From Cryobacterium sp. M96 (lineage in GTDB: Bacteria; Actinomycetota; Actinomycetes; Actinomycetales; Microbacteriaceae), in contig NZ_PJJS01000051.1 in the NCBI RefSeq assembly GCF_002929845.1, positions 62,001 through 126,000 of the forward strand: a DNA stretch of 64,000 nt, in the 5' to 3' direction. The notes beneath the pieces are model-generated. The model was given only the letters and a program-made list of their open reading frames with translations, did not search any database and was not told where the DNA came from. Shown in pieces: positions 3,135 to 35,332 of this stretch; position 1 is the first letter of the stretch, and the number at the start of each line of letters is the position of its first letter. The position numbers and the translations under genes were made by a program.

Positions 3135-5282
3135 TCAGGGAGTGGCGCGGATCGCGTCCACCAGGGCGGCGAAGCGGGCGTTGCCGGGCAGGTCGTCGAT
3201 GAGCACGGACTTTCCGTCGGGGCCGGCCAGCGGGATGCGCCAGTTCGGGTACTCGTTCGAGGTCCCGGGCTGGTTCTGGGTCCGGCGCTCGCCGACCGCA
3301 TCCACCAGAGCCACGCCAAGGAGCGACGAGGGCGTCAGTGCGGTGTACGCGTAGAGCGCCTCAACCGTCTCCTGCACGGTCGGGGCTGGCTCGGTGCCGA
3401 GCGGCGGCAGCAGGCCGCGTTCACGAAGCGCGGCCAGCATGGCGGACTGCTCGGCAAGGTCCGCGGTGCGCTCTTCCTCGACCGATCGCCCGAGCAGACC
3501 GAGCGATTCGCGCAGGGCCACGTGGTCGCCGGCGAGATAGCCGGCCGTCGGAGGCAGATCGTGGGTGTTCACACTGGTCAGGCAGGCCTGGCGGTACCGT
3601 TCGGGGGCCAGCGGCACGCCGTTGTCTCGTTCGAACCAGAGGATCGAGGTTCCGAAGATGCCGCGTTCGGCGAGGTAGTCGCGCACCCAGGGCTCGAAGA
3701 CGCCGAGGTCTTCGCCGATCACCACGGCGCCGGCGCGCTGGGCCTCGAGGGCCAGGATGCCGATGAGTGCCTCGTGGTCGTAGTGCACGTAGGTGCCCTC
3801 TCCCGGTCCGGCGCCGACCGGGATCCACCACAGGCGGAACAGACCCAGAATGTGGTCCACCCGGATGCCGCCGGCGTGGTGCAGGATACTGCGGAGCATG
3901 TCCCGGTAGGCGACGTAGCCCGACTCGGCCAGCCGGCCGGGGTGCCACGGCGGCTGCGACCAGTTCTGGCCCTGCTGGTTGAACATGTCCGGCGGGGCGC
4001 CCACGGTCATGCCCGGGGCGAGAACGCCCTGCAGGGTCCAGGCGTCGGACCCGGTGAACTGCACCCCGACCGCGAGGTCGTGCACGATGCCGATGGCCAT
4101 CCCGGCATCCGTCGCCGCGCGTTGAGCGGTCTCCAACTGCTGGTCGCAGAGCCACTGGAGCCAGCTGTGGAATTCTATGCGGTCCGCGAGCTGCTTCCGG
4201 TGCTCGGCGGCGAAGGGACCGCGGGGGCCGCGCGGCTCGATCGACCATTCCGGCGCATCCGCCGGGAACAACTCGGCCAGGGCGCACCAGAGCGCGAAGT
4301 CGACCAGACCCTGACCCTGCTCGGCGCAGAATTCCTCGAACCGGTGGGCACGGGAGGGGCTCGGCCGCACCTCGTGCACGGCTTCCAGCGCGGTCAGTTT
4401 GGCGGCATAGGCGCAGTCGCGGTCGAGGTGGTCCGCCTCCAGGTTGGCCGAGTGCTGCCGGTCAGCGAGGGACTCGACAACGGCTCGTGCCGCCGGGGCG
4501 AGGTAGGCGTATTCGGGCACGTCCTCGACCCGAATGTACAGCGGGTGGAAAAAGCGCCGGCTCGACGGCAGGTAGGGGGAGGGCTCGACCGGCGGGGCGG
4601 GCTCGGACGCGTGCAGCGGATTGACCAGGACGAAGTCGGCTCCGTACTGGGAGCCGGAGATGGCGGCCAGGTCGGCAAGGTCGGCGAAGTCGCCGATCCC
4701 CCAGCTCCGGGAGGAGCGCGCCGAGTAGAGCTGGGCCATCAAACCCCAGTCGCGATGCCCGGCCAGGTTGCGGGTGGTCTCGAGCCGGGGCGGGGTCACG
4801 ACGAGGCCGCAGCGCGCCGTGTGGTCTCCGCTCTCTGCGTGCAGGGTATGCCAGCCCAGAGGCAGGCCGGCCGGAATTTGGAACATCGCCCGGCTCGTCG
4901 GCCGACCGTCGACGGTGCGGGGTTTCTCCCAGAGCCCGGTCTGCAACACCTCGTGCCGGGTGCCGTCCTCGGCGACGATCCAGACGAGGGCCGTCGAACC
5001 TGCGCCGGCGTGCACGGGCACCTCGGCCTCGCCGCCCGCGCGGAGCACCACGACGGGAGGCAGGAGCCGGCGCCAGGGCGCGAGGCTCTGCTCGGTCAGG
5101 GCCGCATCAACCTCGGCAGGCGTGCCGGCGGGAACGCCGAGGGCACCCAGGACCTTACGCAGGGTGCCGAAGTCGACCGCCCGTGAAGCACCGTCCCAGC
5201 CGGTGAAAGAGGTGTCAACCCCGAGTGATCGTGCCAGTTCCAGCAGCGCCGCCGCAGAACGGTCGGTTGGTTCGAGTTCCAT
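3135..5282 (-). CDS. malQ: 4-alpha-glucanotransferase (amylomaltase, GH77)
   Basis: Transfers alpha-1,4-glucan segments between maltodextrins and releases glucose, in the cytoplasm. The 715-residue length matches the long MalQ form with an N-terminal beta-sandwich extension. The three GH77 catalytic signatures are present: the nucleophile Asp in IRVDHILGLF, the acid/base Glu in VIGEDLGVFEP, and the transition-state Asp in NTHDLPPTAGY. With the maltokinase at the left edge this is a maltodextrin/glycogen corner of the genome, though the two genes are convergent with another gene between them and not co-transcribed. No sign of damage. Confidence 0.93.
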   Translation of the reverse strand: MELEPTDRSAAALLELARSLGVDTSFTGWDGASRAVDFGTLRKVLGALGVPAGTPAEVDAALTEQSLAPWRRLLPPVVVLRAGGEAEVPVHAGAGSTALVWIVAEDGTRHEVLQTGLWEKPRTVDGRPTSRAMFQIPAGLPLGWHTLHAESGDHTARCGLVVTPPRLETTRNLAGHRDWGLMAQLYSARSSRSWGIGDFADLADLAAISGSQYGADFVLVNPLHASEPAPPVEPSPYLPSSRRFFHPLYIRVEDVPEYAYLAPAARAVVESLADRQHSANLEADHLDRDCAYAAKLTALEAVHEVRPSPSRAHRFEEFCAEQGQGLVDFALWCALAELFPADAPEWSIEPRGPRGPFAAEHRKQLADRIEFHSWLQWLCDQQLETAQRAATDAGMAIGIVHDLAVGVQFTGSDAWTLQGVLAPGMTVGAPPDMFNQQGQNWSQPPWHPGRLAESGYVAYRDMLRSILHHAGGIRVDHILGLFRLWWIPVGAGPGEGTYVHYDHEALIGILALEAQRAGAVVIGEDLGVFEPWVRDYLAERGIFGTSILWFERDNGVPLAPERYRQACLTSVNTHDLPPTAGYLAGDHVALRESLGLLGRSVEEERTADLAEQSAMLAALRERGLLPPLGTEPAPTVQETVEALYAYTALTPSSLLGVALVDAVGERRTQNQPGTSNEYPNWRIPLAGPDGKSVLIDDLPGNARFAALVDAIRATP

Positions 5283-5336
5283 GGGACCACTCTAGATCCG
5301 GGACCGGTTCCGGACCCGCGCCGGACCCCGCCGGCT

Positions 5337-6068
5337 CTACCTGCCGAAGCGCGAGACGAAGGCCTTCATCAGCTTGGCCGGCTCGGTGACGATGGATGCG
5401 TCGATCGCCGCGATGACGTCGTCCAGGGCGTCGGGATCGAAGTAGCCGGACTCGCGGTAGATGCGGATGCGGGTCAGGATGCCGGCATTGGTCAGTTCCG
5501 GATGGAATTGCGTCGCGTAGACGTTGTTGCCGACCCGGAACGCCTGCACGGGACAGTTCTGCCCGGTCGCCAGCAGGACGGCGCCGGGCGGCAGCTCTGA
5601 ACAGGCCTCCTTGTGCCCGACGAAAGCCTGGAAGGTGGGCACGAGCGCGGCGAACAGCTGGTCGGCTGCGCCTGCCTCGGTGAGGGAGATCCAGGTCGGC
5701 CCGGCCTCCTCGGACCAGGTGCGGTCCAGCCTGCCGCTCAGATGGCTGGTGAGCAGTCCGACACCGTAGCAGGCACCGAGGAAGGGGAAGTCCCGGGCCA
5801 GCACCTGGTCGAGGAGGGCGGCCAACTCGGCCTCGACGCGGCGTTGCACGGACGACTTGATCTCGGCGGAATCGCTCGCGTTGAAGGGGCTGCCGCCCAC
5901 GATGATGCCCGAGTATCCGTTCAGGTCGATCGGCGGCATCGGCGCAGCCTCGAGCCGCACCCGGTGGAGCTGGTCGGGTTCCAGATCGCCGGCCGCGAGG
6001 AAGCCGGCGTACTCGTCATCGGCGGCTTCGTCCTCAGAACGGGTGGCGAGCAGCAGGAAGGGCTTCAC
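5337..6068 (-). CDS. Class I glutamine amidotransferase (GuaA-N-like)
   Basis: A stand-alone class I amidotransferase domain of about 243 residues. The nucleophile elbow is LGACYGVGLL, and the catalytic His-Glu pair is in TQFHPELT near the C-terminus. The oxyanion-strand motif GIIVGGSPFN is also present. The GTG at 6068 (MKPFLLLATRSEDEA) is chosen because homologous sequence begins there; a longer reading to 6203 adds a low-complexity Arg/Ser-rich stretch with no family resemblance. Such proteins are often annotated as GMP synthase-like, but no synthetase domain is attached and the acceptor substrate is unknown. It sits alone between malQ and the PhnB-like gene. Confidence 0.85.
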   Translation of the reverse strand: MKPFLLLATRSEDEAADDEYAGFLAAGDLEPDQLHRVRLEAAPMPPIDLNGYSGIIVGGSPFNASDSAEIKSSVQRRVEAELAALLDQVLARDFPFLGACYGVGLLTSHLSGRLDRTWSEEAGPTWISLTEAGAADQLFAALVPTFQAFVGHKEACSELPPGAVLLATGQNCPVQAFRVGNNVYATQFHPELTNAGILTRIRIYRESGYFDPDALDDVIAAIDASIVTEPAKLMKAFVSRFGR

Positions 6069-31183: not shown

Positions 31184-31197
31184 GTCCTCCGCCATTG

Positions 31198-31300
31198 GTT
31201 GTCTCGCGCGGTTGTATCGCGCGGTTGTGTCGCGCGGTTGTGTCGCGCGGTTGTGTCGCGCGGTTGTGTCGCGCGGTTGTGTCGCGCGATTGTATTACGC
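31198..31300. repeat. Tandem 13-bp repeat, seven units plus a decayed eighth
   Basis: Unit GTTGTGTCGCGCG. Units start at 31198, 31211, 31224, 31237, 31250, 31263 and 31276; five are identical, the first two carry one change each, and an eighth at 31289 is degenerate. It ends 10 bases before the 87-bp element at 31311. The same order of gene end, tandem repeat and element is seen at 15283-15436 with an unrelated unit. Confidence 0.92.
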
Positions 31301-32766: not shown

Positions 32767-33717
32767 ATGGAAACGTGGGACGTCATCGTGGTCGGTGCGG
32801 GCGTCTGCGGTCTGACCATCGCCCGGAACCTGCAGGAGCGCGGTCGTGCGGTCCTCCTCCTCGACAAGGGATCGCGGCCGGGCGGGCGGCTCGCGAGCCG
32901 CCCGCTCGGCGGCCGGTTGTTGAACCCGTCCGTCGACGCGGTTCACAGTCACGACGCCGAGGTCACCCGCGAGATCACCCGCCGAACGGGAGCCCGGTTC
33001 GTGCCCGACACCGAGGGCTACGCGAAGTGGATGTTCGACGAGCCCGCGGGCGATATCGCCAAGCGGTGGGCGGGCGGCACGACGCTCCGGCGCACCTTCG
33101 TCACCCACCTCGCCGTGCAGAATTCCGGTCTCATCCACGTCGTGCCGCACAACTCGGGGGAACCGTTCGGAGGCCGGGCGGTGGTTCTCACAGCGCCGGT
33201 TCCACAGAACCTGCAGATGCTGCGCGGCAGCGGGATCGCTGTCGCGCCCGGCCTGCTCGAGGCTGCCTACGACAGGCGGGCCGTTCTGCTGTGCATCGTC
33301 GACGGCGCCGACGTCGTGAATGACGTCGTGGGCTGGTCCGCTCCCGACGGAGTCATCGAGACGATTAGAGTCAGGCACCGGGACGATGCCCGACAGGTGT
33401 GGCTCGAGGTCATTGCAAGCCCGCTCTGGAGCGAGGCGACCTGGGACGCGGACGCCACATTCTCGCAGGCGGAGCTGCTGGCCGAGCTGATCCGGCTGCT
33501 GCCCGGCGTGCGCGTTCTGGACTCAGCGTTGAAGCGCTGGCGGTATGCGAATGCTGTGGTGCCTGCAGATTCGGGGTCGGATTCCACGTTCTTCCGCAGC
33601 GCGGACCAGCCCGGCATCTTCGTGGCGGGAGACGGTTTCGGGCGGCTGCACGGGCATCCGTCGGGCATCTCTCGGGCCGTGCGCTCCGGACTGGACGTGG
33701 CCCGCGCGCTCGCCTAG
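32767..33717 (+). CDS. FAD-dependent amine oxidase-like protein (renalase type)
   Basis: 316 residues. The N-terminal Rossmann motif VIVVGAGVCGLTIARNLQER and RPGGRLASRPLGG bind FAD, and the C-terminal FVAGDGFGRLHGHPSGISRA closes the FAD site. Length and layout match bacterial renalase-like oxidoreductases, which oxidise isomeric forms of NAD(P)H; that activity is possible but not shown. Single gene, divergent from the epimerase. Confidence 0.8.
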   Translation: METWDVIVVGAGVCGLTIARNLQERGRAVLLLDKGSRPGGRLASRPLGGRLLNPSVDAVHSHDAEVTREITRRTGARFVPDTEGYAKWMFDEPAGDIAKRWAGGTTLRRTFVTHLAVQNSGLIHVVPHNSGEPFGGRAVVLTAPVPQNLQMLRGSGIAVAPGLLEAAYDRRAVLLCIVDGADVVNDVVGWSAPDGVIETIRVRHRDDARQVWLEVIASPLWSEATWDADATFSQAELLAELIRLLPGVRVLDSALKRWRYANAVVPADSGSDSTFFRSADQPGIFVAGDGFGRLHGHPSGISRAVRSGLDVARALA

Positions 33718-33993
33718 CCCGTTTGAGCCCGGCGGTCGAGCTCGTCTTCCGGCGGTCGAGCCCGTCGAGACCCGGCGCGCCGTCGCTAACTTCGGAGATT
33801 TTGGCGACACGCCGCTCAGGCGCCAAGACCGGCGTTTACCAAAAAATCTTCGTATTAACGTGACGACGGATGCGGGTGGCAGACCCGGTGACGGATGCCC
33901 GAAGCAGGCCTGGTCGCTCCCCGCCGAGGCACTGGCCGGGTTCGAGCAGGCCCTGCTGGAGTCGGCCCCGCACCTGACGGTGTCGAACCTCGC
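33718..33993. other. Intergenic region with imperfect hairpins and a possible remnant
   Basis: Starts with two copies of CGGCGGTCGAGC (from about 33731 and 33752) and a TCGAGCCCGTCGAGA inverted repeat, a type common between Microbacteriaceae genes. TTCGGAGATTTT (33791) and AAAAAATCTTCG (33841) could be a decayed relative of the 87-bp elements. From about 33860 a plus-strand frame reads CPKQAWSLPAEALAGFEQAL and ends HLTVSNLA at 33997, possibly the tail of a lost gene; family unknown. Confidence 0.4.
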
Positions 33994-34779
33994 CTAGAGC
34001 AGCACGCCCCACACCACGTGCGCGGCCAGCAGCGTGGTGCCGAGCGTGACGAGGGTGATCTGCACGATCTCCACTCGGTGCGGATGCGCCCATGCGCCGT
34101 GGGCTCGCCGGCCGAGCCAGGCGTTGGTCCAGACCAAGGCCGCCACCGCGAGCAGCGAGAGGGTGACGGTGCGCACGAAGAGTTCGGGCACGTCATGGAG
34201 GACCCCGGCGCCGACCTGGTAGAAGGCGATGATGCCCCACGGCACGATGCCGACCATGGCTCCGAAGACGAAGGGCCGGAGCGAGCCGCCGGCCGGTTCA
34301 CGCTCCTGCAGTGCGAGGAACAGCGTGGCACCCGCCGTGATGGCGTAGAGCGCCACCAGCGTGCCGACCTCCGTGACGCCGTTGAACTGGGCGATGAGGA
34401 ACACCGTGACCGCGGAGACCTGCGAGTACTCGACCCAGCGCAGCGGATTGCGCGCGGCGGCCAGGCCGCGCCGGTAGCTGCCGGCGACCGTCGGGGTCAC
34501 GGCGGCGAGACGTAGGAGCGCGGAGAAGGCGAGCAGGACGACGACGGCCACCCCGAGGTTCACGGCGGCCAGGTCGACGACCTGCGCTTCGGCCTGGGAA
34601 CCCACCGGCCCGCCGGGGAAGCCGGCCGTGACCGGCAGCAGCACCGGGGCGCTCTGGGCCAGGACGACCACGGAGACCAGAACGGCCTGTGCGACCAGGA
34701 GGAGTGCGGCGGCGAGGTTGACGCTGCTCAGGCGGGTAGATCGGGCGTCCGTCACGGTGTTCTCCGATGCCGTCGTCAT
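33994..34779 (-). CDS. Heliorhodopsin homologue without any lysine
   Basis: 261 residues with seven predicted transmembrane helices (about 20-42, 68-92, 113-133, 137-157, 168-192, 199-222, 236-261). The helix 3 stretch RNPLRWVEYSQ and helix 5 PFVFGAMVGIVPWGIIAFY are heliorhodopsin hallmarks; Glu117 in WVEYS sits where the Schiff-base counterion is expected. In helix 7, EIVQITLVTLGTTLLAAHVV aligns with the canonical SLVAKSALAW region, with Thr248 in place of the retinal-binding Lys. The whole protein has no Lys residue, so a retinal Schiff base cannot form whatever the alignment. ATG at 34779. Monocistronic, divergent from the AlkD-like gene. The frame is intact, so it is probably a functional membrane protein with another role. 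Confidence 0.85.
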   Translation of the reverse strand: MTTASENTVTDARSTRLSSVNLAAALLLVAQAVLVSVVVLAQSAPVLLPVTAGFPGGPVGSQAEAQVVDLAAVNLGVAVVVLLAFSALLRLAAVTPTVAGSYRRGLAAARNPLRWVEYSQVSAVTVFLIAQFNGVTEVGTLVALYAITAGATLFLALQEREPAGGSLRPFVFGAMVGIVPWGIIAFYQVGAGVLHDVPELFVRTVTLSLLAVAALVWTNAWLGRRAHGAWAHPHRVEIVQITLVTLGTTLLAAHVVWGVLL

Positions 34780-34837
34780 GCGCTCAGCGTAACGGCCGGG
34801 GTGCGCCGGCAGCCTCCGGAAACGCGAGAATGAAGGG

Positions 34838-35332
34838 GTGAGTGACGCCGGCAGCTTCGTAGACGCGACGCTGCAGGCCGAGGGGGATCCGTACCGGGCG
34901 GCGGCGCAGGAGCGGCTGGGCAGCGACCTGCGGTTCTACGGTGCCTCGGTCGGCGCGGTGCGCGGAACGATCCGGGACGCCGGCCGCCGGTATCCCGGCC
35001 TGACGCACGACGACATCACAGCATTGAGTTCCGAGCTGTGGGCGGTGCCGGTGTTCGAGCGCCGTCTCGCGGCCGTCGTGCTGCTGCAATCGAATGTGCG
35101 GGTGCTGGACAACTCCGACCTGAGCCGGATCGAGGGATTTGTGCGAAGTGCCCGCCTGCGCGAGTTGGTCGACCCGCTCGCCGTCGACGTGGTGGGTCCG
35201 CTGGTGGAGCGGTTGGATGCGCCGGGCCGGGCCCGGGCAGACGGGGTGCTCAATCGCTGGGCCGGCGACGGCGATCCGTGGTTGCGCCGGGCCTACCTGC
35301 TCACGAAGCGTCGGCTCGAGCAGCACCTCTGA
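34838..35332 (+). CDS. AlkD-like DNA alkylation repair protein, short form
   Basis: 164 residues of HEAT-like repeats. LRFYGASVGAVRGTIRDAGR, ELWAVPVFERRLAAVVLLQS and the WAGDGDPWLRRAYLL segment match the AlkC/AlkD DNA-glycosylase family. Full AlkD proteins are near 220-240 residues; this one stops shortly after DPWLRRAYLL, so the last repeats that help grip DNA are absent. It could be truncated or a short family variant. GTG start; convergent with fadD (6 bp between stops). Confidence 0.75.
   Translation: MSDAGSFVDATLQAEGDPYRAAAQERLGSDLRFYGASVGAVRGTIRDAGRRYPGLTHDDITALSSELWAVPVFERRLAAVVLLQSNVRVLDNSDLSRIEGFVRSARLRELVDPLAVDVVGPLVERLDAPGRARADGVLNRWAGDGDPWLRRAYLLTKRRLEQHL

Follow-up and report, generated by a model that had tools for sequence, protein, structure and literature searches.

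A lysine-less heliorhodopsin paralogue in Cryobacterium and its relatives in Microbacteriaceae

What becomes of a heliorhodopsin (HeR) when the helix-7 lysine to which retinal would be bound is gone? The question is raised by a gene, here called P0001, in a stretch of 64,000 nucleotides from Cryobacterium sp. M96 (contig NZ_PJJS01000051.1, positions 62,001 to 126,000 of the forward strand; this whole stretch is referred to as the window). The features on which the analysis rests are the following, in positions of the window.

33994..34779, minus strand: lysine-less HeR paralogue P0001, 261 amino acids (open reading frame, profiles, fold)
34000..34083, minus strand: helix 7, residues 233-260; constraint lost in the lysine-less clade (model, entropy)
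34036..34038, minus strand: codon ACC for Thr248, which aligns with the retinal lysine K241 of 48C12 (HMMER and MAFFT alignments)
34147..34173, minus strand: start of helix 6, residues 203-211, with the new R203, T206, L210, A211 signature
34216..34251, minus strand: helix 5 signature GIVPWGIIAFYQ, residues 177-188; V179, P180, W181, G182 and A185 invariant in 35/35 rows, residue 188 Gln or Glu
34345..34383, minus strand: end of helix 3 to helix 4, residues 133-145, with N133-G134 and Y145; predicted extracellular side
34420..34452, minus strand: RNPLRWVEYSQ signature of helix 3, in which Glu117 occupies the counterion position (alignment)
34838..35332, plus strand: DNA alkylation repair enzyme (PF08713), divergent neighbour, start 58 bases from P0001; functional tie only putative
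32767..33717, plus strand: FAD/NAD(P)-dependent oxidoreductase, convergent neighbour; functional tie only putative

Family membership and loss of the retinal site

The reading frame of P0001 runs on the minus strand from an ATG at 34779 to a stop ending at 33994 and is intact over its 261 codons. In Pfam-A the sole family found up to E = 10 was PF18761 (Heliorhodopsin), with 123.1 bits versus a cut-off of 26.7; PF01036, which would have spoken for type-1 rhodopsin ancestry, was absent from the matches up to this limit. In NCBIfam, NF038020 (HeR) scored 124.8 bits versus a cut-off of 100, and the one other match lay far under its own cut-off. Nine other lysine-less members were scanned against the NF038020 cut-off; four passed and five fell below. 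Sequence matches to P0001 in the PDB comprised six distinct sequences, all of them HeRs. The helix 3 and helix 5 signatures that the first-pass annotation had pointed out, RNPLRWVEYSQ and GIVPWGIIAFY, were located at residues 110-120 and 177-187, and the seven helices that it had counted reappeared as transmembrane helices in an AlphaFold model of P0001 calculated with 41 relatives (pLDDT 90.3, pTM 0.86). This model also contains a long A-B loop with two strands within it. In Foldseek, a structural comparison of the kind that the annotation had proposed, it matched HeRs best: the ten best PDB chains were all HeRs, among them 6su3 (48C12 HeR) with E 4.7e-13, TM 0.86 and 2.4 Å, and type-1 rhodopsin structures matched only from E 4e-2. 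With curated profile cut-offs passed and a HeR fold, P0001 belongs to the HeR family by descent. A spurious reading frame was ruled out by the profile, the fold and the dN/dS values given below. The inverted orientation with a cytoplasmic N-terminus is predicted also for the lysine-less proteins, as Lys plus Arg residues were more numerous in predicted inside than in predicted outside segments in 35/35 aligned rows (means 10.1 versus 2.2). A scan of positions 33600-34950 for promoters and terminators found none.

The 261-residue translation contains no lysine at all, and both HMMER and MAFFT aligned Thr248 to K241 of 48C12, in agreement with the annotation. Orthologues were found in four other Cryobacterium genomes with 86, 81, 80 and 75% identity; among named genomes, C. 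cheniae has the nearest relative (86%). Thr occupies this position in all four orthologues, which makes an error in the sequence very unlikely, and it was rejected as an explanation together with a one-off mutation. For the comparison at the clade level, a lysine-less set of 35 rows (36 with L046 dropped) was set against a canonical set of 45 of the 56 K-bearing rows, from which two lysine-retaining relatives, eight divergent rows and one broken row had been dropped. Lysine at the K241 position was present in none of the 35 lysine-less rows. Several residues invariant in all 45 canonical rows were hardly or never kept: N138, M115 and N207 in 0/35, F206 in 1/35, H80 in 2/35 and Q213 in 6/35. 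Tyr at Y108 was kept in 7/35 lysine-less rows, and Trp at W246, present in 44/45 canonical rows, in 16/35. The annotated counterion Glu117 does align with E107 of 48C12, which is Glu in 45/45 canonical rows, but it is weaker evidence than had been implied, with Glu in only 24/35 lysine-less rows. P0001 itself kept Y108 (as Y118), and F206, N138 and H80 are replaced by A213, T148 and R90, respectively; the pocket comparison starts after H23, which precedes the aligned stretch of 48C12. According to the available part of PMC6951262, retinal is sandwiched by F206 and Y108 in 48C12, and the proton and signal network of this protein is described in the accessible text of PMC9726877 and PMC9385722 as comprising E107, H80, H23, Q26 and W246. 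Judged from these alignments, most of the retinal site is gone in the clade, not the lysine alone. Of the residues expected of a HeR that acts as a retinal photoreceptor, P0001 has the counterion Glu and the Tyr of Y108 and lacks the helix-7 lysine, F206, N138 and H80. The annotated reading of an intact, HeR-derived gene for which a covalent retinal pigment is impossible is supported by the profile scores and the fold, by the tree and the orthologues, and by the signs of purifying selection.

The loss of constraint was most pronounced in helix 7. With helix limits for entropy and charge counts set from the model of P0001, its mean entropy (residues 235-260) was 0.22 in the canonical rows, the lowest of the seven helices, and 2.13 in the clade, the highest, corresponding to a 9.8-fold increase. 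Helix 5 was the least changed transmembrane helix (0.63 versus 1.18, 1.9-fold), and its V179-P180-W181 is invariant in the lysine-less clade. Lysines were scarce throughout the aligned parts of the proteins (0.12 per 100 residues), 25 of the 35 rows having none, nine having one and one having two. As a control, hydrophobic neighbour genes predicted at the same loci had a mean of 0.90 lysines per 100 residues and none in 2/40 cases. Zero lysine protein-wide is unusual and partly compositional; drift towards high GC may explain part of the depletion.

A new consensus, defined as a residue present in at least 75% of the clade and differing from the canonical one, was found at 17 positions (49, 127, 132, 142, 145, 153, 160, 182, 185, 188, 195, 203, 206, 207, 210, 211 and 225). 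Fourteen of these lie within residues 127-211 and belong to helices 3-6 or to the E-F loop; helices 1, 2 and 7 contain none of the 17. Thirteen are common to both lysine-retaining relatives, L013 and L014. Y145, G182, R203, T206 and L210 are present in both of these and in 0/37 other K-bearing HeRs, other families included, and Q188 is confined to lysine-less rows (0/39 K-bearing HeRs). Some residues, e.g., P49, L132 and A185, also occur in HeRs of other families, so that not all are new to the lineage. Given HeR orientation, for which the charge pattern speaks in 35/35 rows, residues 133, 145, 188, 203 and 206 are predicted to lie in the extracellular half.

In a tree of 63 HeRs, outgroup included, which was calculated with the K241 column removed and whose rows were hand-chosen (22 of the 36 earlier lysine-less rows plus L122 and L123), the 24 lysine-less rows formed one clade (100/99). 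The 14 rows left out of this tree included L085, L046 and most of the longest. The lysine-retaining Cryobacterium proteins L013 and L014 adjoined the clade, and a split with 100/99 set apart the other 37 K-bearing HeRs, which included 20 from outside the family. A quick tree of 92 rows did not strictly unite the lysine-less rows: L085 and L046 were placed on the lysine side, and two trait changes were needed, the second being L046, with L085 at the border. Both have Arg at the K241 position; L085 has a long branch, and L046 is a relative of L013 and L014 that is broken in two frames. Long terminal branches were present among the lysine-less rows in both trees. The tree is unrooted, and because every outgroup HeR read has the lysine, it was presumably lost rather than gained. 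The two lysine-retaining relatives already carry the signature, so that it preceded the loss of the lysine and the dismantling of the retinal site.

Distribution, selection and gene neighbourhood

Among 398 Microbacteriaceae genomes drawn, a HeR-type match was found in 84 and a lysine-less one in 32, representing 12 of 85 genera. In the remaining 52 HeR-bearing genomes, read as 19 (two near-identical copies counted) plus 33, the lysine position was read in all cases and lysine was kept; the last batch of these canonical-only reads, 33 genomes and three second copies, gave lysine in 36/36. A scan of named genomes for the helix 5 motif, which biases the result towards the lysine-less clade, yielded 45 loci, and at the 44 with a readable K241 position the residue was never lysine. 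These loci belonged to Cryobacterium, Agromyces, Frigoribacterium, Salinibacterium, Subtercola, Microbacterium, Microcella, Yonghaparkia, Curtobacterium, Labedella, Frondihabitans, Amnibacterium and unnamed metagenome-assembled genomes (MAGs). The suggested search of related genomes for the same loss was positive, with Thr248 kept in the four Cryobacterium orthologues and a wider clade in 12 genera. In an order-level sample of 396 genomes, 25 outside the family matched, and the 24 readable loci of these 25 all had the lysine. In viral contigs, 26 stretches fitted a search pattern and none was a relative. A MAG titled Acidobacteria bacterium G2_29 (L157) contains a HeR-like protein 61% identical to that of Amnibacterium L159; its contig may be misbinned.

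Within Cryobacterium, 5/57 genomes hold an intact orthologue, and a sixth (G030, L037) has pieces only. The gene is also broken in Salinibacterium L125, where it is split over two frames; such members indicate that it is dispensable in some lineages. The genome of P0001 has a lysine-bearing canonical HeR as well (318 bits, contig C43), and also a type-1 rhodopsin match (contig C28; P0001 is on C32). A canonical HeR match was absent in 21 of the 32 lysine-less carrier genomes, which argues that the lysine-less protein is not just a subunit of the canonical HeR.

The selection analysis that the annotation had called for was performed by the Nei-Gojobori method. The ten pairs formed by the five Cryobacterium orthologues gave dN/dS values of 0.25-0.41. 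The canonical HeRs of these genomes, taken as stop-to-stop frames with some pre-start bases included, which can only blur their ratio, gave 0.06-0.18, and per genome pair the lysine-less value was 1.8 to 4.5 times the canonical one. The lysine-less gene is constrained, less so than its canonical paralogue.

Gene neighbours were predicted with a simple GC-position gene finder rather than a trained one. In the loci examined, no neighbour gene was conserved across the lysine-less clade, and no partner is therefore named. A shared operon or partner for the whole clade was rejected, as the neighbours differ between subclades in these loci. In the Cryobacterium subclade the neighbour is the DNA alkylation repair enzyme, encoded divergently; the orthologues L118 and L121 have next to them, in the same divergent arrangement, a protein that begins alike. 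Seven Curtobacterium loci have a same-strand gene of one similarity group whose centre is some 1.4-3.3 kb 5′ to the lysine-less HeR, and in the two members scanned (L138 and L140) it encodes the photolyase-related DPRP. In Frondihabitans L156 a UvrA-like gene (3276-5819, same strand) ends 67 bases upstream of the lysine-less HeR. An exonuclease/endonuclease/phosphatase-family protein is encoded near Agromyces L122, and a DNA polymerase A-family protein near the Microbacterium MAG locus L146. Other neighbours are an ABC-2 transporter in Frigoribacterium, a LuxR regulator at L136 and a molybdopterin oxidoreductase in Subtercola L129. A DNA-repair theme among the subclade neighbours is suggestive; it is not claimed here because it was picked after looking and without a control. 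Elsewhere in the window, at 31197-31293, immediately behind a gene of the histidine phosphatase family, there is a tandem array of a 13-base unit, GGTTGTGTCGCGC, with 7.5 copies and 96% matches.

Possible roles of a heliorhodopsin without bound retinal

As the lysine has been lost and the family is nevertheless kept by many Microbacteriaceae, a light-sensor scaffold seems to have been reused without a bound pigment. The reading that we hold to be probable, by a modest measure, is a chromophore-free HeR paralogue whose action would depend on a ligand or partner on the side of helices 4-6. The duplication of a HeR gene, which most likely took place in a microbacteriaceal ancestor, would have given rise to a copy that gained the Y145, G182, R203, T206, L210 and A185 signature on the extracellular half of helices 3-6 while the retinal lysine was still present, with Gln or Glu at 188 following later. 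Thereafter the lysine would have disappeared, together with most residues of the Schiff-base region and of the pocket. Descent, this order of events, the loss of the retinal site and persistence under selection are demonstrated as far as alignments, trees and substitution ratios reach. What is kept today would be a seven-helix membrane protein of inverted orientation and without a chromophore, which most likely binds a ligand or membrane partner on the side of helices 4, 5 and 6 and acts through protein contacts, without light. We infer the output by protein contact from canonical HeRs, which are reported, in the available parts of PMC9529153, PMC9769723 and PMC11109279, to act in this way on glutamine synthetase, a photolyase and an ABC transporter. 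The new signature would form a site that binds something, its residues probably touching each other; alternatively, they may serve folding or dimer packing.

A HeR turned chemical receptor is a tentative proposal to which we assign a rather low probability. An outside ligand would be held between helices 4, 5 and 6 by Y145, Q188, R203 and T206, and it could be retinal or an apocarotenoid, bound non-covalently, because retinal synthesis genes co-occur family-wide and adjoin a lysine-bearing sister.

The best rival, doubtful to a similar degree, is non-covalent binding of retinal, an apocarotenoid or a carotenoid by a carrier, store or sensor of retinal supply that reuses the ring end of the old pocket. 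BCD is a dioxygenase making retinal. Its gene (PF15461) was enriched in the carriers: in the draw of 398 genomes it was found in 21/32 lysine-less carriers (one of these matches, in G438, is partial), in 7/52 genomes with other HeRs only and in 13/314 HeR-free genomes. By genus the figures were 10/12 carrier genera versus 5/73 others (Fisher tests; group tallies for BCD and type-1 rhodopsins by hand, association uncorrected for kinship above genus). Among hand-picked genomes, a type-1 rhodopsin was present in 30/35 carriers (the match in G438 is in two pieces), 10/19 canonical-only and 5/15 HeR-free genomes. The contig of P0001 also has a BCD gene, at a distance of about 52 kb and beyond the limits of the window. 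In G003 (L038, 901-6644) the lysine-retaining paralogue lies tail-to-tail with BCD at a distance of 22 bases; the genes for DPRP and, after a gap of about 1.1 kb, lycopene cyclase and BCD are on one strand, and the paralogue is convergent. A broken relative in G008 also adjoins BCD. The invariant Pro-Trp of helix 5 would fit such binding as well, and protein-wide lysine depletion would avert stray Schiff bases. On the other hand, the retinal-sandwiching aromatics F206 and Y108 are mostly lost, and the lysine-retaining relative in G046 does not adjoin BCD. A BCD match was lacking in 11/32 carriers, and five carriers (G333, G207, G163, G060 and G367, an incomplete genome) were without a type-1 rhodopsin as well. 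Within Cryobacterium the BCD difference was not significant (3/5 carriers versus 14/52 others, p = 0.15); type-1 rhodopsins were found in 5/5 carriers versus 33/52 others. The association with BCD could also be explained by a shared habitat and may reflect sunlit environments only. Among the 19 hand-picked canonical-only Microbacteriaceae genomes, BCD was found in just one (G014), though a type-1 rhodopsin was present in 10; these genomes may use another source of retinal or have a BCD too divergent for PF15461.

It is improbable that P0001 is a paralogue in slow decay with no function of note. The raised dN/dS compared to the canonical HeR, the broken copies in some genomes and the long end branches would be expected of decay. 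However, lysine-less HeRs persist in at least 12 genera, some residues are invariant in 35/35 highly diverged rows, several of them new in the clade, and 10/10 pairwise dN/dS values were well under 1. Least probable of all is that P0001 joins the type-1 rhodopsins of its own cell as a regulatory or hetero-oligomer subunit, a role proposed for Rh-noK, which occurs in tandem with proteorhodopsin (available part of PMC10308929; arrangement also mentioned in that of PMC7714340): 30/35 carriers do have a type-1 rhodopsin alongside, but five have no such match (one of these genomes is only 81% complete), and in the genome of P0001 the two genes are on different contigs.

The chromophore-free reading that we favour has known precedents in lysine-less type-1 rhodopsins, namely, Rh-noK and the FArhodopsins. 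Like Rh-noK, P0001 is a paralogue that lost the lysine and is kept alongside other rhodopsins. Rh-noK has an orientation opposite to that of HeRs. It also differs in belonging to the type-1 family and, as far as the accessible text of PMC10308929 describes it, in its tandem arrangement with proteorhodopsin, in contrast to the separate contigs found here. The freshwater FArhodopsins likewise lack the lysine that a related paralogue group has, and they are proposed in the same portion of PMC10308929 to be retinal-less; they are type-1 proteins tied to a flotillin gene, whereas the HeR clade has no fixed neighbour in the loci examined. With canonical (type-3) HeRs such as 48C12 and TaHeR, the clade shares the profile, the fold, the predicted inverted orientation, the long A-B loop with its two strands in the model, the Val-Pro-Trp of helix 5 and, in 24/35 rows, the counterion Glu. 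It differs from them in the missing retinal lysine, the largely lost residues of pocket and proton network, the unconstrained helix 7 and the new residues of helices 3-6. The yeast ORPs and the haloarchaeal opsins of Becker 2016, which reportedly lack the canonical retinal site, are similar in having an opsin scaffold without bound retinal and differ in their type-1 lineage.

In the open-access literature, with subscription papers mostly outside the scope of the search, we found no description of a lysine-less HeR clade. The available part of PMC7714340 gives about 600 Rh-noK among 5,558 microbial rhodopsins "including HeRs", a count that may include some HeRs. One HeR survey kept only sequences with the helix-7 motif SxxxK (accessible text of PMC8612252) and a second was likewise restricted to a helix-7 lysine (accessible text of PMC9601134); because both required this residue, the lysine-less branch was filtered out. 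The NCBIfam "HeR" equivalog labels some proteins that are unable to form a pigment. What heliorhodopsins do is still largely unsettled, and the lysine-less branch constitutes a natural experiment in which the chromophore was removed and the scaffold kept. Its intermediates show which residues changed first, and with the extracellular half of helices 4-6 the branch offers a region that can be tested.
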